NCBI GenBank assembly: GCA_039930045.1
Contig: JBDSQB010000011.1
Span: 1-33,892, forward strand
Direction of reading: 5' to 3'
DNA from: Chthoniobacterales bacterium
GTDB lineage: Bacteria > Verrucomicrobiota > Verrucomicrobiia > Chthoniobacterales > DASVRZ01
DNA: 33,892 bases
A model generated the notes under the pieces. It saw only the letters and a list, made by a program, of their open reading frames with translations, was not told the DNA's origin and did no database searches. Position numbers and translations under genes: made by a program. Shown here in pieces: positions 11,401 through 32,143 of the stretch (the first letter of the stretch is position 1; each line of letters starts with the position of its first letter).

Positions 11401-13999
11401 GGGCAGCTCCACCTACACGGTCGGCAAGATCAACAACGCGGTCAGCCTGAGCGGTTCCACCAATTACGCGACCCTGCCCACCGGAGTGATCGCAGGGCTG
11501 AATAACTTCACCATCTCCGCTTGGGTGAAGTTGAATAGTGCGGCACTCTGGCCACGGCTCTTCAATTTCGGCACGGGCACAACCAGTTTCATGTATCTGC
11601 TCCCTAGGAATGGATCGGGCAATGTGCAGTTCGGAATCACAACAAATGGATGGAACGGGCAGCAGCAAATCAACACCGCCTACACATTCCAAACTGGAAC
11701 ATGGACACATGTGGCAGTGACGTTGTCGGGAACCGTAGGAACGGTCTATGTGAACGGAACCTCGGTTGGAACCAACAGCACACTGACGCTAAATCCATCC
11801 AGCTTGGGAATCACAACGCAGAACTATATCGGAAAATCGTACCTTGGCAGCGATCCGTATCTCAATGGTCTGGTGGACGAGTTCCAAATCTACGGCCGTG
11901 CCTTGAGTTCCTCGGAAATCTCCGCCTTGGCAACAGCCTCGTTGAACGCGCCCGCGAACCTTGCCGCGTCCCCGGGCCAAACCCAGATCGCGCTGAACTG
12001 GAGCGCGGTCCCGGGAGCGACCGGCTACAACGTCAAACGCGGCTATGCCAGCGGAGGCCCCTTCACGACGATCCTCGGTCCGGTTACCGGCACCAGTTAC
12101 ACCGACACCAGCCTCGCCACTGGCAGCCCCTATTATTACGTGGTGAGCACGCTCAACGGAGTGGTGGAAAGCGCCAACTCCGCCGAAGCCAGCGCCACCA
12201 CGATGGCCCCGCCCCTTGCTCCGGCTGCTCTTACTGCGACCGGCGGGGACGCTCAAATAGCTCTCACCTGGGCCGCTTCTCCCGGAACCGCCAGCTATCA
12301 AGTCAAGCGTTCTCTGACCTCCGGAGGTTCGTATGCCATCGTTGCATCGGGTCTAACCGGAACGTCCTGCAACGACACCGGCCTGACCAATGGCACGCCG
12401 TATTTCTACGTGGTCTCTGCGGTCAATCCCGCTGGCGAGAGCCCGAACTCCGGTCAAGCCTCGGCGACTCCCCTGCCGCCCGTGCCCAACGCCCCGTCCG
12501 GCCTCACCGCCACGCCGGGCAACGGCCAGATTGCGCTCAGTTGGTCGGCCGCCAGCGGCGCGGCGAGCTACAACGTCAAGCGCTCCACCGTTTCCGGCGG
12601 CCCCTACACCGTCATCGCCAGCGGGCTGACGGCCACCAACTACGTTGACAACCCGGTGGTCAACGGGACGATCTATTTTTACGTCATCACCGCGGTCAAC
12701 CTCGGCGGCGAAAGCGGCGCCAGCACTCAGTTGGCGGTGACGCCCAACCCGCTGCGCGCCCATCTGCGCTTCGATGAAATCAGTGGGACGACCGCCACCG
12801 ATACCAGCGGAAACGGCTGGAACGGCACGCTCGTCGGCGGATCCACCTACACGGCAGGCAAGATCAACAACGCGGTCAGCCTGAGCGGTTCCACCAATTA
12901 TGTAACGCTGCCAACAGGGGTCATTGCTGGACTAACAAATTACACCATTTCGGCGTGGGTGAAATTGATCAGCACGTCGAACAACACGAGAATTTTTGAT
13001 TTTGGAACGAGTACCTCGAATTACTTGGAGCTGTGCCCGAAGAACGGAAACAACGGCTTTTTGCGCCTTGAAGCAGTCAAGGGAGGAGTGGTACAGCAGA
13101 TTAATACAACCTACACGTTCCCAACCGGGACGTGGACGCACGTGGCAGTGACCCTGTCGGGTTCCACCGGCACGCTCTATGTCAACGGAACAGCGGTCGG
13201 ATCCAATGCGGTGATGAGCCTCAATCCATCGAGTTTCGGTAACACCACCAAAAATTATATCGGAAAATCGCAATGGAGCAACGATCCCTATCTGAACGGC
13301 TCTCTGGACGAATTCCAAATCTACGGCCGCGCCTTGAGTGCCGCCGAGATCTCCGCCGTGGCAGCAGCCTCGCTGACTGCGCCCACGAATCTTGTCGTTA
13401 CCCCGGGCGAAACTCAGATCGCGCTGAACTGGAGCGCCGTGTCCGAAGCGGCCGGCTATAACGTCAAGCGCGCCGATGTGAGCGGCGGTCCCTACACGAT
13501 CCTCGGTCCGGTGACCAGCACGAGCTACATCGACACCAATCTCTCCTCCGGCAGCCCCTATTATTACGTGGTTACCGCCCTCAATGGGATGGTTGAAAGC
13601 GCAAACTCCGCCGAGGCGAACGGGACCACTTACACCTCCGTCCAGACGTGGCGGCTGACCAACTTCGGCACGGTCGCCAATGTCGACGCCGCCGCCGACA
13701 CGGCCGACCCTGATGGCGATGGCTGGACCAACGCCGAGGAATTCATCGCCGGCACCGATCCCACGAACGCAGCCAGCACGCTGAAAATCAGCCAACTCCA
13801 AATGAGCGGCAGCAACATCACCGTAAGTTTCTCCACCGTATCCGGAAAAACCTACCGCGTGGAACGCTCCGACACGCTGGAAAACGGTTCGTGGACAATC
13901 GTGCAGGGCAACATCGCCGGCACCGGCGGCACTGTTCAGGCCACGGATGTCGATGCGGCGGGCCAGGCCAAACGCTTCTACCGGATAGTCACCCCCTGA
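5408..13999 (+). CDS. Giant secreted modular protein: alginate-lyase-superfamily domain plus LamG, FN3 and Ig-like arrays
   Basis: 2863 residues from a GTG start whose product begins with a signal peptide cleaved near 'ALA-HPL'; the copy at 32479 uses ATG at the same place. Approximate domains: beta-sandwich 24-250; alginate-lyase-like (alpha/alpha) domain 255-620; FN3 625-715; LamG 718-915; two Ig-like (cadherin/He_PIG-type) 925-1115; LamG 1116-1312; FN3; LamG 1407-1605; four FN3 1608-1967; LamG 1970-2177; three FN3; LamG 2448-2656; FN3; a C-terminal module with 'DPDGDGWTNAEEF' and a beta tail to 2863. The lyase-like part has 'NWDSDNM' and E487-S-G-R-D-Q-F-H494, a signature shared with the two other lyase-like proteins here. 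Such proteins cleave uronate polymers by beta-elimination, but the actual substrate is unknown. The LamG/FN3 arrays suggest glycan binding and a long surface stalk. It lacks PEP-CTERM and SLH tails. LamG cores are AT-richer than their flanks. Confidence 0.92.
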   Translation: MKNPIQFLCSLIGGLLLSNAALAHPLTFNSTITYSAAQPSGAADSVAQWSGAAFDAANIGGSGVNSDGGANNGTANDASTYVANGRPAQGQTFTTGSNPNGYEVSGLTVRLAGYTNNTATGANQIAWDLRPAPSPIIVTFGKVNGTTHSLLSIQNFIAGGEGTPGSGTSANGPGTYLTFNLPFPVHLDPNTTYSFDLTTQGKGFNYFELLGTSADPYAGGTAYTRPSKGATITPLSGDRVFQVNMTASTMPYAPFAHPGTLHTETDFDRMKAKIAAGTSPWKTSFDQFTGNRLASLGWGPTAYEYIIRGGPEQNNYTRTQWDGNAIYELSLRWKLTGDVAYANQAVWIANAWSGKLLGITGDSNQALASGICGYLFAIGGEILSTYPGWPAAQKQAYKDMMMRVFYIANVEYLWYHFGTPVNAGGNTHYRLNWDSDNMASMAAIGILCDNRAVYQQAVDYFKFGAGNGRVERAAWYIHPDGTSQTEESGRDQFHNQGGWYSMGLLCQMAWNQGDDLFGYDNNRVLRAYEYIAKYNLYNDDVFWVYHSNTDSATNETLSSNGRWAGNYPAWELVYNHYANVQGVAAPWSKLAMNRIRPEGFPTIYSTPSAADSLGLGSLTYAREDTTTSAAPSGLLAQWSKNQLILNWWGSATATSYQIQRTASGASAAGPYATLGTAVEPNLNFTDTTVAQGGSYYYKVVAITPTGNLESTPLLANQALVASYSFEGSTNDGTGTRHATGKGTTAPGYAAGFGGGQAISLNGVDQYVQFPVNSGLSRDVTLSAWVYWNGGNANQRVFDFGSEIEKFMMLTPKDGYGKIAFQMTTSRGNNGSIYLTGPAMPIATWTHLAVTFNGETATLYVNGLPVAAGSSPRLAPMFSQPFCYLGKSMWNGDPYFSGRIDNFRISNYALSGSDVYAQWGQSANHAPKFTGNPLFRANATQGTAYTTQSIYTSATDADGGTLIYEKVSGPSWLGVAANGALSGTPANSDNGKNLLVVRVTDPVGATDDANLYVTVNNTNEAPTWLSGTVTKPGVTRGQAYASSLAANATDPDLPYGDSLSFSKVGGPAWLMIGINGDLTGTPGAGDAGLNSFTVRVTDAGGLYADATLEMNVFPFAQRSSYQFEQNLTDSVGNFPGTITGTPNYVSGRTGQALSLDGATHYVTLPAGAASYHEISISTWVYWNGGGNWERIFDFGNSTSSFLMLTPNSGSGMRFTIAHGGLEQQLNTTALPTGRWMHVTVTLSGSTATLYVNGAAVATNNAITLAPDAFNPALNYIGKSQFSDPLFNGQIDDFRIYNYALSAAEVGSIVSSIPPPTPGSVTASGGNGTSQVSLGWGVASGATSYIVKRSIATGGSYTPIYTGTATSYADTSASPGVTYYYVIVAVNAAGESVGTTELSGMANIVMPKVHLRFDETTGSTAADASGNGWNGTLVGGYTWTTGKINNAVSLSGTTNYATLPSGVIAGLGNYTLSTWVKLNSISTWARIFDFGTGTTNYMFLTPSSGASKMRFAIRTPSASEQQINSATIVSTTGVWTHVAVTFSGSVGTLYINGVSAGTNTGMTLTPSSLGLTTQNYLGKSQFSTDPYLNGSLDEFQIYGRALSASEISALAAPLAAPGGLAVSIGNAQAALTWNAVSGATGYNVKRATVSSGPYTVVGANLAGPNWTDTGVINGTSYFYVVTALNGLAESVNSTEVSTTPVGPPPVPANFTAVSDNGLVTLTWTASSGATSYNIKRSTTDGSGYLTIGISTSATYADSIVTNGTAYYYVVTAVGPNGESAASVQASATPLAPPAAPAGLTATASNATVTLAWSAASGATSYNIKRSDTSGSGYELVGTTSDTGYVDTDVVNGAPYYYVISAQNAVGEGADSTQATATPVDVPAAPSGAIASAGNGQAGLVWQAVGGATSYTIKRSTVSGGPYTVLASGLTTTSYFDSTVVNGTTYYYVISAVNAGGEGDSSTELVVTPNSNPLRAHLRFDQISGATVTDSSGNGWNGTLVGSSTYTVGKINNAVSLSGSTNYATLPTGVIAGLNNFTISAWVKLNSAALWPRLFNFGTGTTSFMYLLPRNGSGNVQFGITTNGWNGQQQINTAYTFQTGTWTHVAVTLSGTVGTVYVNGTSVGTNSTLTLNPSSLGITTQNYIGKSYLGSDPYLNGLVDEFQIYGRALSSSEISALATASLNAPANLAASPGQTQIALNWSAVPGATGYNVKRGYASGGPFTTILGPVTGTSYTDTSLATGSPYYYVVSTLNGVVESANSAEASATTMAPPLAPAALTATGGDAQIALTWAASPGTASYQVKRSLTSGGSYAIVASGLTGTSCNDTGLTNGTPYFYVVSAVNPAGESPNSGQASATPLPPVPNAPSGLTATPGNGQIALSWSAASGAASYNVKRSTVSGGPYTVIASGLTATNYVDNPVVNGTIYFYVITAVNLGGESGASTQLAVTPNPLRAHLRFDEISGTTATDTSGNGWNGTLVGGSTYTAGKINNAVSLSGSTNYVTLPTGVIAGLTNYTISAWVKLISTSNNTRIFDFGTSTSNYLELCPKNGNNGFLRLEAVKGGVVQQINTTYTFPTGTWTHVAVTLSGSTGTLYVNGTAVGSNAVMSLNPSSFGNTTKNYIGKSQWSNDPYLNGSLDEFQIYGRALSAAEISAVAAASLTAPTNLVVTPGETQIALNWSAVSEAAGYNVKRADVSGGPYTILGPVTSTSYIDTNLSSGSPYYYVVTALNGMVESANSAEANGTTYTSVQTWRLTNFGTVANVDAAADTADPDGDGWTNAEEFIAGTDPTNAASTLKISQLQMSGSNITVSFSTVSGKTYRVERSDTLENGSWTIVQGNIAGTGGTVQATDVDAAGQAKRFYRIVTP
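11042..12199 (+). repeat. Internal direct repeat, copy A (FN3-LamG-FN3 cassette)
   Basis: This part of the giant gene encodes FN3, LamG and FN3. It matches 12482-13629 in domain order, with long stretches of near-identical DNA at the FN3 edges (for example the segment encoding 'IKRSTVSGGPYTV') and at LamG borders ('AGKINNAVSLSGS'-like). The offset between copies is about 1.43 kb. The LamG centre is more divergent and AT-richer (line 11641-11700 counts 29 G+C of 60). Confidence 0.8.
12482..13629 (+). repeat. Internal direct repeat, copy B (FN3-LamG-FN3 cassette)
   Basis: Partner of 11042-12199. Borders are nearly identical while the LamG centre differs and is strikingly AT-rich (12961-13020 counts 24 G+C of 60). 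A related LamG at about 9628-10230 shares the same edges with a GC-rich centre, so at least three cassettes form one family. Confidence 0.8.
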
Positions 14000-14064
14000 T
14001 CACCGTCCGCCAATCCATCCTTCATCCTCGTTCGTCATCCACTCGCAACCCTCTTCTTTTTTCC

Positions 14065-15825
14065 ATGCGTTTCATCCCCGTCCTCGTCACCACCACCGCC
14101 CTGCTGGCATCCCTCGCGTCCGCAGCCGACACCGTCGGCACCGCGCTACCGCCGCTGCCACCCTTCCCTGCGCTACCCGCCTCCCAGCCCGTGGACAGCG
14201 TGCCTATGGCCGACTCCAAGTCCGCCGCCGAGGTGAAGCTCGACCTCCCCATCACCCCCGGCCCTTACGCGCCGACCTGGGACTCCATTGAGAAAAACTA
14301 TCCCGGCACCCCCGCCTGGCTGCGCGACGCCAAGTTCGGCATCTGGGTCCATTTCGGCCCGCAGGCCGCCGGCAAGAGCGGCGACTGGTATGCCCGCAAC
14401 CTCTACAAGCCCGGCACCGACGCCTACAAAAACCATCTCGCCAACTACGGCCACCCGTCGGAAGTCGGCTACAAGGAGGTCCTGCGCGACTGGAATCCCA
14501 CCAAGCTCGACCCCGCCAAACTCGTCGAGATCTACAAGGACGCCGGCGCCCGCTATCTAATCATCCAAGGGGTTCACCATGACGAGTTCGATATGTGGAA
14601 CTCCAAGTATCAGCCTTGGAACTCCACCCGTCTCGGCCCCAAGCGCGACCTCCTCGGCGAATGGACCAAGGCCGCCCGCGCCGACGGCATCCGCTTCGGC
14701 GTCACCTTCCACCATGAATATTCCTGGTGGTGGTGGCAAACCGCTTTCGCCGCCGACAAAAACGGCTCCAAGGCCGGCGTCCCCTACGACGGCCACCTCA
14801 CCCTCGCCGACGGCAAGGGCAAGTGGTGGGAAGGCCTCGACCCACGCCTGCTCTACGGCGTGGACCTCCGCGAATACAAAGGCGTCGTCGCCGCCGCCAA
14901 CGATAGTTGGAAGCCCCCGGCCGCCGGGATTTTTCAAAACCACGCCGCCTACGCCAAGTGGTATGCCACCTGGTGGGCTCTGCGTATGATGGACGTCGTC
15001 GACAAATATCAACCGGACTTCATCTACACCGACGGCACCAACATCCAGCCCTTCAGCGGCGCGGGCACCGGCACCGGTCAAAAGTCCGACGCCATGCAGC
15101 GCGTCATCGCCGACTTCTACAACAAGACTCTCCAGCGCCGCGGCAAGGTGGACGTCTTCAGCATCGTCAAGTTCCGCCCCAAGACCAACGGCACGGTCAA
15201 CACCCAGGAAGGCACCATCCCCCGCGACATCAAACGCGATCAGGACTGGATCGCGGAAACGCCCGTCGGCGACTGGTTCTACGCCCCCGGCTTCACCAAC
15301 GACTCCGGCGCCGTCATCCGCTACCTCCTCGAACAAGTCTCCCGCGACGGCAACGTCGGCCTCTGTATCTGCCCGCTCCCCGACGGCTCGCTCGACGACA
15401 GCACGGTCAAGATGCTCAAGGAAACCGGCGAATGGATGCGCCTCAACGGCGCCGGCATCTACGGCAGCAAAGCCTGGACGCGCCTCGGCGAAGGCACCGG
15501 CGGCAAGCTCAACGTCCTTCCCGGCGGCAAGATCGGTCGCAACCAAGCCGACCATCGTTTCTCCGCTTCCGACATCCGCTTCACCGTCGGCAAAGACGGC
15601 AACCTCTACGCCTACTGCATGACCGTGCCCGCCACCGGCACCCAGGTGCGGATCACCTCGCTGGGCACCACGGCCAACGCCCTCGGCAAGCCGGTCAGCT
15701 CCGTCACACTCCTCGGCTACACCGGCACGCTCACGTGGAAGCAGGAACCCGACGCGCTCGTCGTCACCTTGCCCGACACCTCCACCTTCAGGACCGCGCT
15801 GGGCTTCAAAATCGAAACGAAATAA
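14065..15825 (+). CDS. Secreted GH29 alpha-L-fucosidase (copy 1)
   Basis: 586 residues. The frame is open from 13891, overlapping the previous gene, but the ATG at 14065 begins a proper signal peptide (cleavage near 'ASA-ADT'), so it is preferred. GH29 enzymes remove terminal alpha-L-fucose with retention. Family features seen: 'AKFGIWVHFGPQA' at the start of the barrel, 'DWYARNLY', 'GVHHDEFDMW' and 'FGVTFHHEY'. Asp323 in 'DFIYTDG' is the expected nucleophile. The acid/base residue cannot be assigned by eye. The C-terminal 120 residues form a beta-sandwich typical of the family. A 65-base pyrimidine-rich gap precedes it; no Shine-Dalgarno motif is present. It is roughly 85% identical by eye to the protein at 18433-20196; GH31 lies between the copies, so the pair arose by duplication. 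Confidence 0.92.
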   Translation: MRFIPVLVTTTALLASLASAADTVGTALPPLPPFPALPASQPVDSVPMADSKSAAEVKLDLPITPGPYAPTWDSIEKNYPGTPAWLRDAKFGIWVHFGPQAAGKSGDWYARNLYKPGTDAYKNHLANYGHPSEVGYKEVLRDWNPTKLDPAKLVEIYKDAGARYLIIQGVHHDEFDMWNSKYQPWNSTRLGPKRDLLGEWTKAARADGIRFGVTFHHEYSWWWWQTAFAADKNGSKAGVPYDGHLTLADGKGKWWEGLDPRLLYGVDLREYKGVVAAANDSWKPPAAGIFQNHAAYAKWYATWWALRMMDVVDKYQPDFIYTDGTNIQPFSGAGTGTGQKSDAMQRVIADFYNKTLQRRGKVDVFSIVKFRPKTNGTVNTQEGTIPRDIKRDQDWIAETPVGDWFYAPGFTNDSGAVIRYLLEQVSRDGNVGLCICPLPDGSLDDSTVKMLKETGEWMRLNGAGIYGSKAWTRLGEGTGGKLNVLPGGKIGRNQADHRFSASDIRFTVGKDGNLYAYCMTVPATGTQVRITSLGTTANALGKPVSSVTLLGYTGTLTWKQEPDALVVTLPDTSTFRTALGFKIETK

Positions 15826-18406: not shown

Positions 18407-18432
18407 ACGTGCATCAATCACACTCCCTTTCC

Positions 18433-20196
18433 ATGCGCCTCCTACCCGCCCTCCTCACCGCCACCGCCCTGCTGGCATCCCTCGCGTCCGCAGCCGCCAC
18501 TGCCTGCGCCGCTCTGCCGCCACTGCCTCCGTTCCCCGCGCTACCCGCCACGCAGGCGATCGACAGCGTGCCCATGGCCGACTCCAAGAATGCGGCCGAG
18601 GTAAAGCTCAACCTCCCCATCGCCTCCGGCCCCTACGCCCCCACCTGGGAATCCATCGAGAAAAACTACCCCGGCACCCCCGCTTGGCTGCGCGACGCCA
18701 AGTTCGGCATCTGGGTTCACTTCGGCCCGCAGGCCGCCGGCCAAAGCGGCGACTGGTATGCCCGCAATCTCTACAAACAAGGCTCCATCGCCTATAAAAA
18801 CCACCTCAGGGACTACGGCCATCCTTCCGTATCCGGCTACAAGGAGGTCCTACGAGACTGGAACCCCACCAAGCTCGACCCCTCCGCCCTCGTCGCCCTC
18901 TACAAGGAAGCCGGCGCACGCTTCCTCATGATCCAAGGCGTCCACCACGACAACTTCGACATGTGGGATTCCCGCTACCAACCGTGGAACTCCACCCGCC
19001 TCGGACCCAAGCGCGACCTTCTTGGCGAATGGACCAAGGCCGCCCGCGCCGCCGGAATCCGCTTCGGCGTCACCTTCCACCACGAATACAATTGGTGGTG
19101 GTGGCAGACCTCCTTCGGCTCCGACAACAAGGACGGCCCCAAGCCCGGCGTTCCCTACGACGGCAAACTCACGCTCGCCGACAGCAAGGGCAAGTGGTGG
19201 GAAGGCCTCGATCCGCGTCTGCTCTACGGGGTCGATCTGCGCGAATACAAAGGCGTCGTCGCTGCCGCCAACCACCCGTGGAATCCCCCGCCCGACGGAC
19301 TGTTCCAAAACCACGCCGCCTACGCCAAATGGTATGCCACCTGGTGGGCTCTCCGCATGATGGACGTCGTTGATAAATACTCCCCCGACTTCATCTACAC
19401 CGACGGCACCAACACCCAGCCTTTCAGCGGCGCGGGCACTGGCACCGGCCTCAAAGCCGACGCCATGCAGACCGTCATCGCCGACTTCTACAACCAGACC
19501 CTCCAGCGCCGTGGCAAGGTTGACGTCTTCAGCATCGTCAAGTTCCGCCCCAAGACCAACGGCACCGTCAACACCGAGGAAGGCGGCATCCCCCGAGGCA
19601 TCAAAATCGACCAGCCCTGGATCGCCGAAACCCCCGTCGGCGACTGGTTCTACGCTCCCGGCTTTACCAACGACTCCTCCGCCGTCATCCGCTACCTCCT
19701 CGAAGAAGTCGCCCGCGACGGCAACGTCTGTATCTGCATCGCCCCGCACCCCGACGGCTCCCTCGACGACAGCACCGTCAAGATGCTCAAGGAAACCGGC
19801 CAATGGATGCGCCTCAACGGCGACGGCATCTACGGCAGCAAGGCGTGGACACGCCTCGGCGAAGGCGCCGACGGCAAGCTCAACGTCCTTCCCGGCGGCA
19901 AGATCAGCCGCCGACAGGCCGACCACCGCTTCGCCCCTTCGGACATCCGCTTCACCGCCGGCAAGGACGGCAACCTCTACGCCTACTGCATGACCGTGCC
20001 CGCCACCGGCACCGCATTGCGCATCACGTCGCTCGGCACCACCGCCAACCTCGCCGGCAAGCCCGTCAAATCCGTCACCTTGCTCGGCTACACCGGCTCG
20101 CTCACGTGGAAACAGGAAGCGGACGCCCTCGTCGTCACCCTGCCCGACACCTCCACCTTCAAGACCGCGCTCGGGTTTAAAATCGAGACGAAGTGA
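18433..20196 (+). CDS. Secreted GH29 alpha-L-fucosidase (copy 2)
   Basis: 587 residues from the ATG at 18433. A GTG at 18409 in frame is possible, but the ATG begins the signal peptide and aligns with copy 1. The protein aligns end to end with the GH29 at 14065-15825, including the identical 'ALPPLPPFPALPA' linker, barrel start 'AKFGIWVHFGPQAAG' and Asp324 nucleophile in 'DFIYTDG'. Differences cluster in loops such as 'SDNKDGPKPG' versus 'ADKNGSKAG', which may alter linkage preference; the end 'TALGFKIETK' is the same. All family motifs are kept, so both copies should be active alpha-L-fucosidases. The gene follows GH31 by 26 bases and precedes the double GH43 by 52. Confidence 0.92.
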   Translation: MRLLPALLTATALLASLASAAATACAALPPLPPFPALPATQAIDSVPMADSKNAAEVKLNLPIASGPYAPTWESIEKNYPGTPAWLRDAKFGIWVHFGPQAAGQSGDWYARNLYKQGSIAYKNHLRDYGHPSVSGYKEVLRDWNPTKLDPSALVALYKEAGARFLMIQGVHHDNFDMWDSRYQPWNSTRLGPKRDLLGEWTKAARAAGIRFGVTFHHEYNWWWWQTSFGSDNKDGPKPGVPYDGKLTLADSKGKWWEGLDPRLLYGVDLREYKGVVAAANHPWNPPPDGLFQNHAAYAKWYATWWALRMMDVVDKYSPDFIYTDGTNTQPFSGAGTGTGLKADAMQTVIADFYNQTLQRRGKVDVFSIVKFRPKTNGTVNTEEGGIPRGIKIDQPWIAETPVGDWFYAPGFTNDSSAVIRYLLEEVARDGNVCICIAPHPDGSLDDSTVKMLKETGQWMRLNGDGIYGSKAWTRLGEGADGKLNVLPGGKISRRQADHRFAPSDIRFTAGKDGNLYAYCMTVPATGTALRITSLGTTANLAGKPVKSVTLLGYTGSLTWKQEADALVVTLPDTSTFKTALGFKIETK

Positions 20197-24290: not shown

Positions 24291-24314
24291 AAACCGGCGC
24301 GTCTTCACTCATTT

Positions 24315-26708
24315 ATGTTTCAAAAAATCTCGCTCCTGTTCGCCCTCGCCGCGGCGGTTTTCACCCCTCACGCCTACGCCGCTCCCGCGACGATTTTCGT
24401 CCAAGCCGATCAGTCCGGCCACGCGATCTCGCCGCTGCTTTGGGGAATCTTTTTCGAGGACATCAACCTCGCGGCCGACGGCGGTCTCTACCCGGAGTTG
24501 GTCCGCAACCGCTCCTTCGAGGGCAGCGACGGTCTGCGCTATTGGAGCATTTCCGGCGGTGGTGAAGGGGCGAACGCACCGGCCATCGACCAATCTCGGC
24601 CGTTGAACGCATTCAATCGCAGCAGCCTGCGCGTACGTCAGGGCAGGGGGGTCGTGCTGGAAAATACCGGCTACTGGGGCATGAACTTGGTCGCCGGCGA
24701 GACCTACACTTTCCGGATCGCCGCGCGAGGCGACTCCGACCTCCAAGGATCCCTGAAGGTCGAGCTCCGTGACGCCGCCGATGGTGTGGTCGCCTCCGGC
24801 AATCTCGCTCTCAACTCCAAGGGCCATGCGTGGAATCAATACTCGCTCAAGCTCGTGCCGTCCCGGACCGCCGCCTCCGGCAAGCTGCGACTCTCCCTGT
24901 CCGGCAACGGCGATGTGTTTCTCGACATGATCTCGCTGAAGCCCAAGCGGACCTGGAAGGGGCATGGTCTGCGCGTGGACCTCGCCGAGTCTATGGATGC
25001 GCTCAAGCCGGCCTTCTTCCGATTCCCCGGTGGATGCTGGGTCGAGGGCGATGAACTCGCCGGTGCTTTTCAATGGAAAAACACCATTGGCGATGTCGCC
25101 TCCCGCACCACCCAGCAAAACCTCTGGGACTACGTTTCCACGAACGGCCTCGGCTACCACGAATATCTGCAATTGTCCGAGGACCTCGGTGCCGAGCCCG
25201 TGTTCTGCATCAATGTCGGTATGGCGCACCATGAGTCCGTGCCGCTCGACCGCATCGGGCCCTACATCCAGGACGCGCTCGACGCCATCGAATACGCCAA
25301 CGGCCCGGTGGACTCCGTGTGGGGTTCGCTGCGTGCCAAGAATGGCCACCCCGCGCCGTTCAATCTCCGCATCGTGGAGATCGGCAATGAAAACGGCGGC
25401 CCCGACTACGCCGAGCGCTGGCCGCTCTTCGTCAAGGCGATCAAGGCCAAGTATCCCGAGATCACCCTGATCGGAAACTACTGGGCGAGGGGATACCCGA
25501 AGGAACCCATGCCCGAGATCATCGATATACACATTTACGACAGCCCCGAAGGTTTCATGCGCAGCGCCACGAAATTCGACGACTACGATCGCAAAGGTCC
25601 GAAAGTCTTCATGGGCGAATACGCGGCGACCAAGCGTGCCGGCTTCGGCAACCTCCGCGCCGCGCTCGGTGAGGCCGCCTTCATGACCGGCCTCGAGCGC
25701 AACGCCGATGTTGTGACGATGGCCGCCTATGCGCCGCTGTTCACCAACATCAACCACCGGGCCTGGAACCCGAACATCATCAACTTCGATAGCTCCGACT
25801 GGTATGGCACCCCGAGCTACTACGTGCAGCAGATGTTCAGCCGCAACGCGGGTCACACAACGCTGCCCGTCAAGGTGAGCAGCGATGAGCTGATCCAAGG
25901 CGAGGCGAGTGGTGGGATCGGTGTCGGCACTTGGGATACCCAGGCCGAGTTCAAGGACATCAAAGTGACCGCGCCCGACGGCAAGATTCTGTTCCAGTCG
26001 GACTTCGCTAAAAACGGCCTCGCGGGCTGGAAATTCAAGGGTGCCGGCGAGTGGAGCGTGCACGATGGCGTGCTGCGCCAGACGGCCGAGAAACAGAAGG
26101 TGCGCGCCCTGATCGGCGACCCGTCCTGGAAGGACTGCACGATCGAGTTGAAAGCGCGAAAACTCGCAGGCCTCGAAGGTTTCATGGTGCTTTTTCAAAT
26201 CCGTCACGAGGAGGACCGCACGGGTTGGAATCTCGGCGGTTGGGGCAACAAGGCTTATTACGTGGGTCTCGACGACGCGGAGAACCGTCTCGACGGATCG
26301 ATCGAGACCGGTCGCTGGTATGACCTGAAAGTGGAGCTGAACGGCGACCGCGTCCGTTGCTGGCTCGACGGAAAACTCATCCACGATTTCCGCCGCCCCA
26401 AACTGACGACCCAGGCGATCTACGCCAGCGCCACGCGCGACACCGCGACCGGCGAGATCATTCTCAAAGTGGTGAACACCGCCGCGAGCCCGACCGAGAC
26501 GAGCATCGATCTCGTCGGCATCGCGAAACTCTCCGGCCCAGCCCGCGCCCTCGTGCTTACATCCGAGAGCCCGAATGACGAGAACTCCCTCGCTGCGCCG
26601 CACAAGATCGCGCCGCGAACCGAGGAGTTCACGCTCTCGGGCACGCGCTTCACTCGCAGCTTCCCCGGCAACTCCTTCACCGTGCTGCGCATCCCCGTCG
26701 CCAAGTAA
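24315..26708 (+). CDS. Secreted GH51 alpha-L-arabinofuranosidase with inserted LamG-like domain
   Basis: 797 residues with a signal peptide (cleavage near 'AYA-APA'). 'ISPLLWGIFFEDIN' opens the fold. A CBM4_9-like beta-sandwich occupies about 70-215, as in plant-type GH51. The barrel carries 'FRFPGGCWVEGD', 'EIGNEN' with Glu359 as acid/base, and 'FMGEYAA' with Glu435 as nucleophile. Between the barrel and the last beta strands lies an extra region at about 523-695 ('GTWDTQAEFKDIKVTAPDG', 'NGLAGWKFKGAGEWSVHDG', 'LNGDRVRCWLDGKLIHDF') resembling a LamG/DUF1080-type jelly roll. The GH51 C-terminal part then resumes ('GEIILKVVN' to 'FTVLRIPVAK'). The enzyme removes terminal alpha-L-arabinofuranose from arabinan, arabinoxylan or arabinogalactan. 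The insert may bind substrate. It is about 130 residues longer than plant GH51 enzymes. Confidence 0.92.
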   Translation: MFQKISLLFALAAAVFTPHAYAAPATIFVQADQSGHAISPLLWGIFFEDINLAADGGLYPELVRNRSFEGSDGLRYWSISGGGEGANAPAIDQSRPLNAFNRSSLRVRQGRGVVLENTGYWGMNLVAGETYTFRIAARGDSDLQGSLKVELRDAADGVVASGNLALNSKGHAWNQYSLKLVPSRTAASGKLRLSLSGNGDVFLDMISLKPKRTWKGHGLRVDLAESMDALKPAFFRFPGGCWVEGDELAGAFQWKNTIGDVASRTTQQNLWDYVSTNGLGYHEYLQLSEDLGAEPVFCINVGMAHHESVPLDRIGPYIQDALDAIEYANGPVDSVWGSLRAKNGHPAPFNLRIVEIGNENGGPDYAERWPLFVKAIKAKYPEITLIGNYWARGYPKEPMPEIIDIHIYDSPEGFMRSATKFDDYDRKGPKVFMGEYAATKRAGFGNLRAALGEAAFMTGLERNADVVTMAAYAPLFTNINHRAWNPNIINFDSSDWYGTPSYYVQQMFSRNAGHTTLPVKVSSDELIQGEASGGIGVGTWDTQAEFKDIKVTAPDGKILFQSDFAKNGLAGWKFKGAGEWSVHDGVLRQTAEKQKVRALIGDPSWKDCTIELKARKLAGLEGFMVLFQIRHEEDRTGWNLGGWGNKAYYVGLDDAENRLDGSIETGRWYDLKVELNGDRVRCWLDGKLIHDFRRPKLTTQAIYASATRDTATGEIILKVVNTAASPTETSIDLVGIAKLSGPARALVLTSESPNDENSLAAPHKIAPRTEEFTLSGTRFTRSFPGNSFTVLRIPVAK

Positions 26709-26742
26709 GCCGACGACTACGTATCCATAAATCAACGACACC

Positions 26743-29700
26743 ATGTATCGCACCATCCCCATTTCCTGTCTCGTGTTCTCGCTATTCGCCACGGCGGGCG
26801 CGGTGGCGGCGAAACCCGAACCGACCATCCTCACGAACAACGTCGTCGAGCTGCGCGAGACGCTCTCGCCGCAGGGCTTCGTGCACCCGGGCATCAGTTG
26901 CAACGCCGAGACGCTCGCGATCATGCGGGAGAAGGTGCTCCAGGGCGTTTCTCCGTGGGTCGATTACTTCGAGGGGATGCGCCGCACCCGTTTCGCGGAC
27001 CTGAAGGAGCGTCCGAAATTGGTCGGGCAGATCACGGACGACCCCGGCATCGGCGCGTTCGCCCACGACGCCCAGCTGGCCTGGGCGCAAACCATCCTCT
27101 ACGTCGTCACCGGCGACGAGGCCTATCGCAAGACGCCGCTGGAGATTGTCCGCTGGTATGGCTCTCGCACGGACGAAAGTTTCTTCCCGCAGTATTTCAC
27201 CGACAGCCACATCAAGATCGGAAAATACGTTTACACCCTGGCCAGCGCTGCGGACATCCTGCGCGCGACCACTCCGAAGAATGCCAAACTCGCCGTGACG
27301 CCGGCCATGATCGACGCGCTTCAGCAGAACTGCCTTCTCCCGATCCGGAAGAACTGCATCGAGCGCAACGATTACTTCATGAACCAGCATTCCTACGCTA
27401 TCATGGGGTTCCTCGCGTCCACGATCCTCGGCGATGAGGTCGAAGACTACAAGCGAGCCGTCGAATGGACGACCGTCAATGCCACATCCCCGAACCAGGG
27501 GCGCAATGGTTCGATCAAGCAACAGATTCGCCTGGTCACGCGCAATGACAAAACTGGCGAAGCCGTTCCGCCGAATCTTCAGCTTGTGGAAATGGGACGC
27601 GACATGGCCCACGCGGAGGGCAATCTCACCAATTTATTGATGATGTCGAAAACCATTGATTTTCAGAAAACGAAAGTTGATCCGGTGAGCGGCACGGTCA
27701 GCGACAAAGCGGATGGGGTTTCGCCGATCCATTTTCTGGACGACCGCCTGCCCAAAGGCGCGGCGCTGTTCGCAAAGTACAACCTGGGGTATGGCCTACC
27801 CTGGATACCCACCTATACCGAGACCGATCCAAAGCATCCAGATTATTTGGCCAGATTCGATCAGCCCAGTTGGCGTGGCGGGATCGGAGGCAGCGGATTT
27901 GTCGGTGGTTATTACTATTACAAAACGCTGGGTCTCGATATGGAGTCGGGGCCATTGCAGTATATCAAAGTCGCTTTTGACGCCACGGCTGCCAGTCGGG
28001 AGAGTGTGAGATCCGGCGGCTATTTAGATACTCTCCACAATTACGGCTTCGATTTCTGGATCGGGTTGCCCGCAGCCGCATCCGGCGCCGCACCCGACCC
28101 GGAGAAAGCTAAGCGCGCCCTGGCGACAGTGCTCCCACCATTGGAAATAACCTATAACGGCATTCCGGTGCAGGGCCAGCAGTTCGAGTATCACTTCGTG
28201 GATTTGTCGGCCCACGCCCAGCCTGGCGACATCTATCCGGGTTCGCCCATGGATATTCCCTTGAAGGTCGTGCGAGATGCCGATGGCACAGGCTATGTCC
28301 GGATGACGCTCGAAAAGGAGCCGCGCAGCATGGCGGTGTTTGCCAGTTTTCCGGCTGGATCCGGGTTGCGTGTGCGTTCCGATAACTTCGTGAAACTCGA
28401 CTTCTATGGGAATGAGGACTACGCGAAGCAATCTCCCAAGCAGACGATCTATCTTCCCAATACCCGCGGCGAATGGAAATACGTGACGATCAACCGCGGC
28501 GGTGGTGGTCGCTATATTCAAGCCACTCCGATGGACGGGGCTGCGTCTCTCGATTTTGATCGAATCGACACGGAGGCTGCTAAAGTCCTGCCGCTGAGTT
28601 TTGATGTGGCAGAGGACTCCAAATCGTTTCCAACGTATGCCGGTGCGAAGCTTGAAAAGGATTATACGGCAACCTATGCGGACAAGCGGTTGGCTGGAGA
28701 AACCAGTGTTGGAAGTGAGAAGGAAAAGATCGAATACGCGGCACGAAATCTTCCAGTGGGCGCGGCTCTGGACGGCACTTCGGGCAAATTCACATGGACG
28801 CCATCCGTCAATCAGGCCGGCGATCACACGCTCTACATTACCGCACAGACCCCCGTCTCCCTTAAAACCATACGCGTGGACATCCACGTTGCTAAGAACT
28901 TGCAGGCCGCATTGGATTACGTGGCCAGGGTCTATGATCCAAAGGAAAAATACGAGTCAGCAACAGTAAAAGCATTCAAAGCGGCTTTGCAAACCAAGGA
29001 CCTTGCCACAGTCAGGAAGGCCGCCGACCAGTTGGCGCTGTTGAATCCGAGGTTGGCGGACGGCAGCCTGGATTACCGCATGGCATCTGCCGGACCTGAA
29101 CGTGGACTCAGCAAGATGGCCGATAACGACCCCCTTAGCTGGGGCGGCCTCTGGGGCTTTGACAAGAACGTCACGATGGATTTCGGCAATCACTTCAAGG
29201 TCAAGTCCGAGGCGTTCCGCATCCAGTGCCGCGATGGTTTCCCCATTCGAGTGGCGGAGTCCGTGGTCTATGGATCGAATGACCGCAAACACTGGACGCT
29301 CTTAACCGAGAACAAGGCCAAAGCCTCCGCCGAGTTGCAGACCTTGACAGTCAAGGAGGAGGAGCGGGACAAGCCTTACAGGTATATCCGTCTGTTCATG
29401 CCGGCCAAACCGTTCCCCATTTTCGAGATCGCGGAGTTTCGCATCGTCGGCGAACGCATCGAGGACTACAGCCCCGATCAACGCGTGGCCTACATCTCGG
29501 GTTATGCCGACGGCACCTTCCGTCCGGACCAGAAACTGACCAAGGCCGAGGCGGTCTCGCTGCTGGCCGGTTTGGTGGACGACTACACCGACAAGGGTGT
29601 CTACGAATGCGCTTTCGTCGATGTGCTCCCCGCCGCGCCTTACTTCGACGATGTGGCCTATATGTCGAGCAAGAAGCTCGTCTCCGCGGACGGGGACAAG

Positions 29701-30078
29701 CGCTTCCACCCGGATGCGCTTATCACGCGCGGACAGTTGGCCGCCATCATGGCACGCATGCAGGCTCCAAAGAGAAAAGACGGCCCCGCCGCCTTGGAGG
29801 ATGTGCGCGCCGACACGCCCCATGCCACCGACGGCGCGTTCCGCCCGAACGCCCCGGTGACCCGCGCCGAGTTCGTGGTGGCCGTAAACCGGATGAGCGG
29901 GCGGGCTGCCACCGAGCAACCGCGCGAGGGCCTGCCGAAGTTCTCGGACGTAAGCGCTTCGCACTGGGCCTACGCCGACATCATGAGAGCCGCCACCACC
30001 TATCCGCTCCCGTCGGCTCCGGCCTCCACCGCGTCCCCGGCGATGCCCGCCGTATCGCGAATCCTGATGGCGGAGTGA
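26743..30078 (+). CDS. Secreted alginate-lyase-superfamily protein with F5/8-type C-like domain and C-terminal SLH repeats
   Basis: 1111 residues with a signal peptide (cleavage near 'VAA-KPE'). A lyase-like (alpha/alpha) domain spans about 55-450: 'FVHPGISCNAETLAIMREKV', 'NDYFMNQHSYAIMG' and E283-M-G-R-D-M-A-H290, equivalent to the ESGRD..H motif of the other lyase-like proteins here. A beta-rich region follows ('YVRMTLEKEP', 'WTPSVNQAGDHTLYITA' of Ig-like type), a short helical linker ('ALDYVARVYDPKEKYESA'), then a discoidin-like domain about 770-905 ('VYGSNDRKHWTLLTENK', 'YRYIRLFMPA'). SLH-like repeats run from 910 to 1090 ('GYADGTFRPDQKLTKAEAV', 'FVDVLPAAPYFDDVAYM', 'FRPNAPVTRAEFVVAVNRM', 'FSDVSASHWAYADIM'). 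SLH repeats anchor proteins to wall polymers, mainly in Firmicutes. The central DNA is AT-richer than its neighbours (28621-28680 counts 28 G+C of 60). Substrate unknown. Confidence 0.85.
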   Translation: MYRTIPISCLVFSLFATAGAVAAKPEPTILTNNVVELRETLSPQGFVHPGISCNAETLAIMREKVLQGVSPWVDYFEGMRRTRFADLKERPKLVGQITDDPGIGAFAHDAQLAWAQTILYVVTGDEAYRKTPLEIVRWYGSRTDESFFPQYFTDSHIKIGKYVYTLASAADILRATTPKNAKLAVTPAMIDALQQNCLLPIRKNCIERNDYFMNQHSYAIMGFLASTILGDEVEDYKRAVEWTTVNATSPNQGRNGSIKQQIRLVTRNDKTGEAVPPNLQLVEMGRDMAHAEGNLTNLLMMSKTIDFQKTKVDPVSGTVSDKADGVSPIHFLDDRLPKGAALFAKYNLGYGLPWIPTYTETDPKHPDYLARFDQPSWRGGIGGSGFVGGYYYYKTLGLDMESGPLQYIKVAFDATAASRESVRSGGYLDTLHNYGFDFWIGLPAAASGAAPDPEKAKRALATVLPPLEITYNGIPVQGQQFEYHFVDLSAHAQPGDIYPGSPMDIPLKVVRDADGTGYVRMTLEKEPRSMAVFASFPAGSGLRVRSDNFVKLDFYGNEDYAKQSPKQTIYLPNTRGEWKYVTINRGGGGRYIQATPMDGAASLDFDRIDTEAAKVLPLSFDVAEDSKSFPTYAGAKLEKDYTATYADKRLAGETSVGSEKEKIEYAARNLPVGAALDGTSGKFTWTPSVNQAGDHTLYITAQTPVSLKTIRVDIHVAKNLQAALDYVARVYDPKEKYESATVKAFKAALQTKDLATVRKAADQLALLNPRLADGSLDYRMASAGPERGLSKMADNDPLSWGGLWGFDKNVTMDFGNHFKVKSEAFRIQCRDGFPIRVAESVVYGSNDRKHWTLLTENKAKASAELQTLTVKEEERDKPYRYIRLFMPAKPFPIFEIAEFRIVGERIEDYSPDQRVAYISGYADGTFRPDQKLTKAEAVSLLAGLVDDYTDKGVYECAFVDVLPAAPYFDDVAYMSSKKLVSADGDKRFHPDALITRGQLAAIMARMQAPKRKDGPAALEDVRADTPHATDGAFRPNAPVTRAEFVVAVNRMSGRAATEQPREGLPKFSDVSASHWAYADIMRAATTYPLPSAPASTASPAMPAVSRILMAE

Positions 30079-30100: not shown

Positions 30101-32143
30101 ATGATCCATCGTTTGCCCCTCATCGGCTGTTTCCTCCTCGCTCTGTTCATCGGCCAGGCCGTCCCGGCTTGTGCCAAAGAGTTCATTCATCCCGGTGGAC
30201 TGCACTCCCAAGCCGATCTCGACCGCATGAAAGCCAAGGTGTCCGCGGGCGAGAGCCCGTGGATCGACGGGTGGAACGCGCTCATTCGGGACTCCAAAGC
30301 GCAGAGCGATTACCGCGCCGCCCCGCACCCTCACATGATGGACCGAGGGCGGGCACAACGGGACGCCAGCGCCGCCTACCTCAATGCCCTGCGCTGGATC
30401 ATCTCCGGCGACAAGGCGCATGCCGACTGCGCCGTGCGCATCCTCAACGCTTGGTCCGAAACGATGAATGAGGTTTCCCATGGCAATGATCAGCCGGGCC
30501 TAGGCGGCATCCCCATCGGCACCTTCGCCGTCGCGGCGGAGTTGATGCGTTCCTACCCAGGCTGGCCCGCCACCGAACAAGTCCGCTTCAAGCGCATGCT
30601 CGTGGATTTCATGTATCCCGTTTGCCACGACTTCCTCACCCGGCACAACGGTCGCGGCGACTCGGCCTTTTGGGCGAATTGGGACACCTGCAACATGCGC
30701 GCGGTCATGGCCATCGGCGTCTTCTGCGACGACCGCGCGAAATTCGACGAAGCCGTCGAGTATTTCAAAAACGGTCGCGGCATGGGCTCGATCCGCAACG
30801 CCGCACCCTTCCGCTTCGAAGACGGCCTCGTCCAATGGCAGGAAAGCGGCCGCGACTACGCCCACGTCATGGGCGGTCAGGGGCTGCTCTTTGAGTTGTG
30901 CCAGATCGCCTGGAACCAAGGCCTCGACCTCTTCGGCTACGACGACAACCGCCTGCTCGGCGCCGCCGAACACGCCGCGCAATACACTCTCTGGAAGGGC
31001 GTGCCTTATCGCTATTACACCAACAGCGATAGCGCCAACCAGTTCTACATCTCGGAGAACTACCACGGCCGCCTCGACGCCTCGCACTTTGAGTTAGTCT
31101 ATAATCACTACGTCGTGCGGAAGGGGCTGAAGGCTCCGCACGTCCAGCTCTTCGCCGCACTCCGCCGCCCCGAACCCGGCGAGATCGACGTCATGGGCTA
31201 CGGCACGCTCACCTTCACCCTCGATGCCGCCGCGTCCCCGCTGCAGACCGAGGCGCCGCCGACACCACGCGAGGTGATCGCGAGCTCGGGCCTGCAACGC
31301 GTCGAGCTGAAATGGTCGCCCTCCGGCGCCTACAATGCGCACGGCTACGAGGTCAGCCGCGCCACCGCGCCGGGCGGCCCTTTCACCTCCATCTACTCGA
31401 CCACTCGGTGGACCACGCCCCTCTACACCGATACCGACCTCGAGCCCGGCCGCAGCTATTACTACACCGTCTCCGCGCTCAACAACGCCGGCAAAAGCGC
31501 CCCCTCCGCGCCCGTGAACGCCATCCCCGCCAAGGGAGAGCCGTTGCCCGCGCTCAGTCAGCGCATCTCCGTTAAGGGCGCGCTCTATTCCAAAGCTGCG
31601 GGCAACTCGTTCCTGGTCCCCGCCACGGGCCGCGAGTTGGACGGGAGCTTCGCCGGTCAACCCGTGGACGGCGATTTCTGTATCACCGCGCGATTGGCGG
31701 ACTGGAATGGATCCGTTGGCATGATGGGGCTGACGGTTCGGGAACCGGGTGCGAAGAAGCCGCGTGCTCTAGCGGTGACCTTGGGCGAAATCGGTGGACG
31801 CCTCGCGCGCTTTCGCACGCGGGTCGATGGCAAAACCACGGTCCAGCGCGGCTGCGACTATACCTGGCTGCCCGTCTGGTTCCGCATTCGGCGCGTGGGC
31901 GACGCGTTCACCGCCTACCAATCTTCCGATGGCATCGAGTGGTTTGAGATCGGCAAGAGCACCGTCGCGCTGCCCCGCACCGCGTTGGTCGGCCTGCTCG
32001 CGAGCGGCGGCGCAACTCCGCCCGGACGAAAAGCGACCGATTCCCCCCAAGGCGTCATCGACCACGTCGCGATCGAGCGGAGCCGGCGGCCCCGCCACCC
32101 GCGCCCGGCGCGCTCGCCACGACCGTGCTCGATGACGGCGTGA
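30101..32143 (+). CDS. Secreted alginate-lyase-superfamily protein with FN3 and DUF1349-like domain, frameshifted near 3' end
   Basis: 680 residues as read, with a signal peptide (cleavage near 'ACA-KEF'). The lyase-like domain covers about 28-375 and is clearly related to the catalytic part of the giant protein: 'HPGGLHSQADLDRMKAKVSA', 'NWDTCNMRAVMAIGVFCDD' and E248-S-G-R-D-Y-A-H255. It lacks the giant protein's N-terminal beta-sandwich. FN3 follows at about 388-475, then a beta-sandwich at about 480-660 resembling DUF1349 or LamG ('DGDFCITARLADW', 'YQSSDGIEWFEIG'). The last residues after 'GVIDHVAIE' become arginine- and proline-rich and end abruptly, while another frame just downstream continues with a good FN3 domain to 32382. 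A single missing base near 32072-32100 would explain this. The lyase-like part and the FN3 are intact, so a truncated active protein is possible. Confidence 0.85.
   Translation: MIHRLPLIGCFLLALFIGQAVPACAKEFIHPGGLHSQADLDRMKAKVSAGESPWIDGWNALIRDSKAQSDYRAAPHPHMMDRGRAQRDASAAYLNALRWIISGDKAHADCAVRILNAWSETMNEVSHGNDQPGLGGIPIGTFAVAAELMRSYPGWPATEQVRFKRMLVDFMYPVCHDFLTRHNGRGDSAFWANWDTCNMRAVMAIGVFCDDRAKFDEAVEYFKNGRGMGSIRNAAPFRFEDGLVQWQESGRDYAHVMGGQGLLFELCQIAWNQGLDLFGYDDNRLLGAAEHAAQYTLWKGVPYRYYTNSDSANQFYISENYHGRLDASHFELVYNHYVVRKGLKAPHVQLFAALRRPEPGEIDVMGYGTLTFTLDAAASPLQTEAPPTPREVIASSGLQRVELKWSPSGAYNAHGYEVSRATAPGGPFTSIYSTTRWTTPLYTDTDLEPGRSYYYTVSALNNAGKSAPSAPVNAIPAKGEPLPALSQRISVKGALYSKAAGNSFLVPATGRELDGSFAGQPVDGDFCITARLADWNGSVGMMGLTVREPGAKKPRALAVTLGEIGGRLARFRTRVDGKTTVQRGCDYTWLPVWFRIRRVGDAFTAYQSSDGIEWFEIGKSTVALPRTALVGLLASGGATPPGRKATDSPQGVIDHVAIERSRRPRHPRPARSPRPCSMTA

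Follow-up and report, generated by a model that had tools for sequence, protein, structure and literature searches.

What is inserted in the GH51 enzyme of this locus, and what might it do there? The window (the whole stretch of DNA analysed, 33,892 nucleotides of contig JBDSQB010000011.1 from a Chthoniobacterales bacterium) carries an alpha-L-arabinofuranosidase-like gene of glycoside hydrolase family 51 (GH51). In the original prediction, made from the letters of the sequence, a LamG-like domain of about 170 residues at 25880-26400 was said to interrupt the C-terminal beta region of this enzyme, with family sequence resuming after it; it was proposed to form part of the active-site wall or to bind the branched substrate. 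The insert was found here to be a circularly permuted member of a branch resembling carbohydrate-binding module (CBM) family 66, nested in a loop of the GH51 sandwich and probably carbohydrate-binding. The probability of this reading as a whole is put at about 0.68.

Insertion in the C-terminal sandwich of GH51

In the Pfam search, the 165 positions of the Alpha-L-AF_C model were spread over residues 435-787 (353 residues), enclosing a match to PF06439 at 567-718. PF06439 (E 8.8e-13, 49.1 bits against a curated cut-off of 26.8) was the sole Pfam family above its cut-off on the insert. Using phmmer, MgGH51 of Meripilus giganteus (6zps) was aligned to residues 34-520 and then to residues 702-793, with just 7 residues of the MgGH51 chain (527 to 535) between the two pieces; the second piece was weak by itself (10.8 bits). 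From this split alignment the insert was therefore delimited as residues 521-701 (window 25875-26417), a length of 181 residues. A paralogue without the insert in the same genome (G000:C6) matched residues 7-520 and 702-793 within one frame of 661 codons, and its linker at the insert site was a few residues long. Among 145 distinct GH51 catalytic rows, the spacing between catalytic and C-terminal profiles was 13-55 residues in the 13 rows labelled 'none' and at least 170 residues (median 189.5) in the inserted rows. Pfam, phmmer and the paralogue agree on an interruption followed by resumed family sequence, and the boundaries first proposed hold to about 20 bases. The insert sits in the loop joining strands 1 and 2 of the C-terminal sandwich. 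Structure prediction, which had been suggested as a check, was run with AlphaFold2 on the insert alone (pLDDT 93.1, pTM 0.89); with the PF06439 E value, this excludes chance as the source of the insertion.

The features of the gene are listed below. Alignment A2 holds 62 insert-bearing GH51 sequences and alignment A3 holds 39 module heads.

24315-26708, + strand: GH51 alpha-L-arabinofuranosidase-like gene, 797 residues (open reading frame list, Pfam, phmmer)
24495-24893, + strand: CBM4_9-like beta-sandwich, residues 61-193 (PF02018, 24.8 bits, just under the 25.9 cut-off)
24999-25625, + strand: GH51 catalytic barrel region, ASD1_dom, residues 229-437 (PF22848, E 5.8e-45)
25389-25391, + strand: acid/base Glu359 (GNENGG), present in 62/62 sequences of A2
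25617-25619, + strand: nucleophile Glu435 (GEY), present in 62/62 sequences of A2
25875-26417, + strand: inserted domain, circularly permuted CBM66/LamG-like module, residues 521-701 (Pfam, phmmer, rotation, AlphaFold2, VIA-align)
25905-26003, + strand: module 'tail', residues 531-563, starting GGIGVGTWDTQAEFKDIKV; matches the C-terminal strands of CBM66/PF06439, which here come first
26010-26405, + strand: module 'head', residues 566-697, with the conserved EGF...N-x-GGWGN motif at residues 621-645
26418-26705, + strand: resumed GH51 C-terminal beta-sandwich, residues 702-797 (Alpha-L-AF_C to residue 787; residues 702-793 match insert-less homologues)

Judged from its sequence, the protein is by family a GH51 arabinofuranosidase: the ASD1 barrel and the Alpha-L-AF_C sandwich (PF06964, E 1.5e-33) are present, as are both catalytic residues. 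The roles of Glu359 and Glu435 were assigned from family knowledge and from their MgGH51 equivalents, Glu351 and Glu429 (PMC7604909, excerpt). The mature protein was modelled by AlphaFold2 with the 62 insert-bearing sequences (pLDDT 94.1, pTM 0.92). By VIA-align, 590 of 775 residues of this model were superposed on MgGH51 (Z 51.5), the unmatched count being about the size of the insert. The N-terminal stretch was judged by eye to be signal-peptide-like. The CBM4-like domain follows the first strand, as it does in the fungal enzyme (PMC7604909, excerpt), and this domain would place the enzyme in GH51 subfamily 2. MgGH51 is of the same GH51 type and has the CBM4-like insertion; it has no C-terminal insertion.

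Circular permutation, fold and nearest kin

The insert is a circularly permuted CBM66-like module in which the last two strands of CBM66 are placed first. Its first two strands lie within residues 531-552 and resemble the final strands of CBM66/PF06439 domains. PF06439 scored 49.7 bits on the module in native order (profile 9-156 of 187) and 61.0 bits after rotation (profile 9-187). On the N-terminal module of locus L041, rotation raised the PF06439 score from 38.8 to 46.6 bits. Built from 14 modules in their native order, a profile matched the CBM66 of levanase (4azz) with 42.5 bits over chain 3-138, leaving the last strands unmatched. The identical 14 modules, once rotated, gave 51.0 bits (E 1.2e-12) over chain 6-161 of 172, and CBM66 was then the sole PDB family at E 0.01 or better. 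In this way the profile matched the founding member over its full length, with rotation required. The window module is tail-first, an order that differs from that of the founding member, and it was therefore filed as CBM66-like and not as plain CBM66.

For the rotation scan, the scoring profile was built from five natural head-first modules. It covered 134 tail-first modules, with near-copies retained and the window module counted twice ('win' and its locus row); 133 of them scored higher when rotated (median gain 27.8 bits), and in 132 the best cut was no more than 12 residues away from the predicted joint. Scored with a tail-first profile instead, the seven head-first modules gave the mirror pattern, the gains of the two DUF1080-type ones being small. 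As a control, 94 thinned modules were used: the median gain was 25.9 bits with the real tail (at least 5 bits in 92/94), 0.0 bits with an equally long upstream GH51 segment (0/94) and 0.0 bits with a shuffled tail (1/94). Over all loci there were 207 head matches, with the tail before the head in 189, after it in 10 and not detected in 8; a tail on both sides was seen in none of the 207. Once identical heads were removed, 148 distinct modules remained (133 tail-first, 7 head-first, 8 assigned to neither order). The unpermuted natural relatives are those 7 of 148.

The insert is predicted to fold as an autonomous jelly roll. With VIA-align, Z values of 8-13 to many concanavalin-like chains place it among LamG/concanavalin-like jelly rolls. 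The domain type of the original prediction was upheld on this basis and by the profiles, and the closest kin could be narrowed to CBM66. Residues 41-176 of the module model were superposed on residues 6-140 of 165 in 4azz (Z 12.2); the first ~33 residues of the model and the last ~25 of the target were unmatched. Z was 12.2-12.4 for CBM66, 12.9 (the best) for the lectin domain of galactocerebrosidase and 8.8-9.4 for DUF1080-type entries. Foldseek alone, run on the module, gave no match at E <=0.001; the structural claim is based on VIA-align and the profiles. CBM66 is the nearest relative of the insert in both the profile and the structure comparisons, in the latter level with the galactocerebrosidase lectin domain.

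The nearest kin compare as follows. CBM66 of the Bacillus subtilis levanase SacC (4azz, 4b1l, 4b1m) has the common fold and the rotated full-length match, and is likewise accessory to an exo-acting furanosidase. The window module differs from it in being permuted and nested in a host domain, and in bearing EGF...N-x-GGWGN where 4azz differs; fructan binding is not implied. The C-terminal lectin domain of galactocerebrosidase (GH59; 4ccc, 3zr5) is unpermuted and has another host; its family PF21708 gave a weak match, below the Pfam cut-off, that was improved by rotation. Among curated families, PF06439 (3-keto-disaccharide hydrolase/DUF1080) alone annotates the insert, with a full-length match once the module is rotated; this class is given here by profile and not by activity.

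Role of the insert and competing explanations

Residues T539, W540, T542, W580, Q589, E621, G622, F623, N639, G641, G642, W643, N645 and Y669 are 90-100% kept across the 62 inserted copies. E621, N639 and N645 are invariant or near-invariant in the 39 heads of A3, in which GH43, GH127 and head-first hosts are included. These shared residues suggest a putative ligand site. By analogy with CBM66, the insert is most likely a carbohydrate-binding module that grips the sugar ends of adjacent branches. CBM66 was reported to bind terminal fructosides, and its deletion to cost ~100-fold of the activity on levan (PMC7833758, excerpt); CBM66 and its catalytic module were described as aiming at the ends of separate branches of one polysaccharide (PMC4725902, excerpt). 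Given such reports, the branched-substrate binding raised at the outset is the likeliest role. On larch arabinogalactan, arabinan and gum arabic, an N-terminal LamG region was reported to make a GH146 enzyme 5.8-, 1.7- and 1.1-fold more active, and on an oligosaccharide 1.6-fold less active (PMC10850190, excerpt).

In the proposed mechanism, the module would grip the end of one polysaccharide branch while the exo-acting barrel trims arabinofuranose off an adjacent branch. The avidity so obtained would raise activity on branched polymers, and none would be gained on small substrates. Less firmly, a terminal furanosyl residue could perhaps be the ligand, given that a furanose end is what CBM66 recognises and that the module occurs mainly in furanosidases. 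A wider proposal is speculative and rather doubtful: a single permutation of a CBM66-like module may have founded a lineage of furanose-end binders in arabinofuranosidases, spread over at least seven phyla. With termini that would now suit a loop, such a binder could have been planted within the enzyme's own sandwich and be fixed rigidly next to the active site, so that the exo-enzyme would have two sites for branched arabinofuranosyl polymers.

Several points weigh against a carbohydrate-binding CBM66-like module. The galactocerebrosidase lectin domain is structurally level with CBM66, and part of the conserved residues may be structural. No binding data for modules of this branch were found. 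CsCBM66 was reported to bind a xanthan derivative and not fructans (PMC11002231, excerpt), and the ligand is therefore not readable from the CBM66 name. The CBM4-like insertion of MgGH51 was described as having no binding site (PMC7604909, excerpt). Finally, by Pfam two hosts are non-glycosidases (the FHA protein L224 and the BNR protein L208) and a third, L206, gave no hit.

Among the alternatives, the one that survives best is that the insert is structural: it would give shape to the active-site cleft or to an oligomer interface and would itself bind carbohydrate weakly or not at all. It is considered unlikely, though it has to be weighed seriously. The insert and the enzyme are predicted as a single confident fold (pTM 0.92), neither a binding cleft nor ligand density was reported for the CBM4-like insertion of MgGH51 (PMC7604909, excerpt), and a C-terminal jelly roll covers the active site in the GH146 enzyme BT0349 (PMC10850190, excerpt). 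However, GH51, GH43 and GH127 proteins also carry the permuted module N-terminally or between domains, where one fixed cleft is impossible, and GH51 paralogues without the insert exist. The module is mobile, with varying positions and host enzyme families, and lining the GH51 active site is therefore not its sole use.

That the insert is a second catalytic domain, a 3-keto-glycoside hydrolase or hydratase as the Pfam name would have it, is very improbable. This explanation has in its favour the lone PF06439 match above the cut-off and a structural match to the 3-keto-2-hydroxy-glucal-hydratase AL2 (8v31, Z 8.8), but CBM66 is the better fit in the profile search and in the structural comparison, where it reaches Z 12 and DUF1080-type entries reach 8.8-9.4. 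The DUF1080-type modules lack EGF...GGWGN, GGWGG being found in 4/4 examined (L014, L016, L018, L208), and a long branch separates them from the rest of the module tree. It is slightly less probable still that there was no permutation and that the first two strands are GH51 sandwich strands with a chance likeness to the CBM66 tail. Short strands such as those of a sandwich may look alike, but tails replaced by upstream GH51 or shuffled sequence yielded no gain, and the module folds alone in AlphaFold2 with its tail strands included. Tail-first modules also occur without a GH51 sandwich in front of them: close to mature N-termini (L039, L041, L127), in GH43 (L148, L159) and in GH127 (L146, L213, L216). 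Chance likeness was ruled out by these controls together with the modules near mature N-termini. An ordinary GH51 C-terminal domain or a plain C-terminal appendage, for which no supporting point was found, can be set aside, as GH51 sequence continues past the insert and insert-less homologues align on both flanks.

The reading as a permuted CBM66-like module has partial precedents. CBM66 with GH51 is already in print, as a GH51 group with CBM66 modules, some of them fused to GH127 (PMC10461819). The window enzyme differs from that group by its permuted module within the C-terminal domain of widespread enzymes with a subfamily-2-type N-terminal CBM4-like domain. Two proteins fit the description of that group (L203:860-5239 and L215:310-4680, both on the - strand); they are fusions of ~1460 residues made of an N-terminal module, GH51 and GH127. 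Circularly permuted CBMs are also known in principle. The precedent is a pair, CBM36 and CBM60, which Montanier et al. reportedly linked by circular permutation in 2010. These are families other than CBM66 and are not known to be nested in the sandwich of a catalytic enzyme. In searches of open-licence literature, no report of a permuted CBM66-like module nested in GH51 was found, and the combination is new relative to that literature. A GH51 enzyme considered as a characterised relative (ORF2125, 502 residues; PMC4560423) was rejected as too short for the insert. The excerpts of PMC8424115 and PMC6472066 held nothing on the insert.

Pfam and NCBI product names for such proteins read 'arabinofuranosidase C-terminal domain-containing' or '3-keto-disaccharide hydrolase' only, so that what is probably a binding module, present in a large class of GH51 enzymes, has no name of its own. 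Permuted and unpermuted versions, two GH51 insertion points and an insert-less paralogue in the same genome form a natural comparison set. It could show how CBMs become permuted and nested, and how exo-enzymes gain from them a preference for branched polysaccharides.

Hosts, history and surroundings

From the scan of named genomes, 80 loci were kept: 28 in Actinomycetota, 26 in Bacteroidota, 8 in Verrucomicrobiota, 7 in Armatimonadota, 4 in Planctomycetota, 2 in Bacillota, 1 in Ignavibacteriota and 4 without a phylum. They were retrieved with inserted enzymes as query, and the counts are not a frequency. The order catalytic part, insert, resumed C-terminal part was seen by BLAST in 73 of the 80, with all seven phyla represented. 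The C-terminal insert is present in at least seven bacterial phyla. The closest named relative (L051) is from a Verrucomicrobiia assembly. Of 387 genomes scanned from the window's phylum, 46 gave a hit with E no higher than 1e-40; among the matches listed, 25 of 71 places extend through the insert. A query with the insert only gave matches in 22 of 288 genomes.

Tail-first modules preceded by a GH51 barrel were followed by the resumed C-terminal domain in 121 of 122 cases. Unusual hosts chosen for Pfam had GH51, GH43 or GH127 domains in 16 of 19 cases, a glycosidase enrichment that is partly built in, most of these genomes having been reached via GH51. The remaining three are L224, L208 and L206. 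N-terminal modules were found in L127, L212 and L214; L211, L213 and L216 are GH127 enzymes and L219 is a GH43 protein. The head-first modules of L150 and L151 occupy the other GH51 site, after the N-terminal strand and before the CBM4-like domain or its place. The one clear non-glycosidase host of the branch (L224:2901-4181, - strand) is an FHA-domain protein; it has a stretch resembling a membrane segment and carries the module, unpermuted, at its C-terminus.

In a tree of module heads, head-first modules were nested among tail-first ones, with weak backbone support; the DUF1080-type modules lay on their long branch outside. A tree of heads and tails was made from 47 rows (30 hand-picked named C-terminal inserts, all other ordered modules and the window). 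In this tree, the five head-first modules of GH51/FHA type clustered with a support of 94. A single tail-first clade was not rejected (p-AU 0.584), the held tree being 3.3 log units better. One permutation event is the simplest reading and not a proof. Tandem duplication as the origin of the permutation received no direct support, as no open reading frame was seen to hold a pair of head matches. The catalytic tree was made from 98 rows, thinned from 145, of which the long-branched L229 is unreliable; on it, the C-terminal insertion requires seven changes. The insertion was therefore gained, lost or exchanged by recombination repeatedly.

Among viral contigs, 14 pattern matches yielded zero confirmed relatives. 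Among phage records, 14 had a match, and MT836184.1 alone covered 96% of the query. This unannotated 'Bacteriophage sp.' contig from human faeces carries a GH51 relative at 7542-9974 and may be misassigned bacterial DNA.

In the window, 4131-32143 (+ strand) is a dense one-strand run of carbohydrate-active genes: GH43, two GH29, GH31, GH43, GH97, GH51 and an alginate-lyase-like gene. The GH29 fucosidases lie at 13891-15825 and 18409-20196 and the alginate-lyase-like gene at 30101-32143 (+ strand). From their sequences, the neighbouring genes would form a cluster for a complex branched polysaccharide. A LamG-rich protein of 2863 residues (5408-13999, + strand) has an alginate-lyase domain, five Laminin_G_3 stretches, putative Ig domains, fn3 and a bacterial TSP3 repeat. 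Adjoining the GH51 gene, a protein of 1111 residues (26743-30078, + strand) combines F5/8 type C and putative Ig domains with three S-layer homology domains. Upstream, two proteins (96-1541 and 1596-4085, + strand) carry passenger-associated-transport (autotransporter) repeats. An antisense open frame of 871 codons (24309-26924, - strand) spans the entire GH51 gene and is probably a by-product of codon usage.
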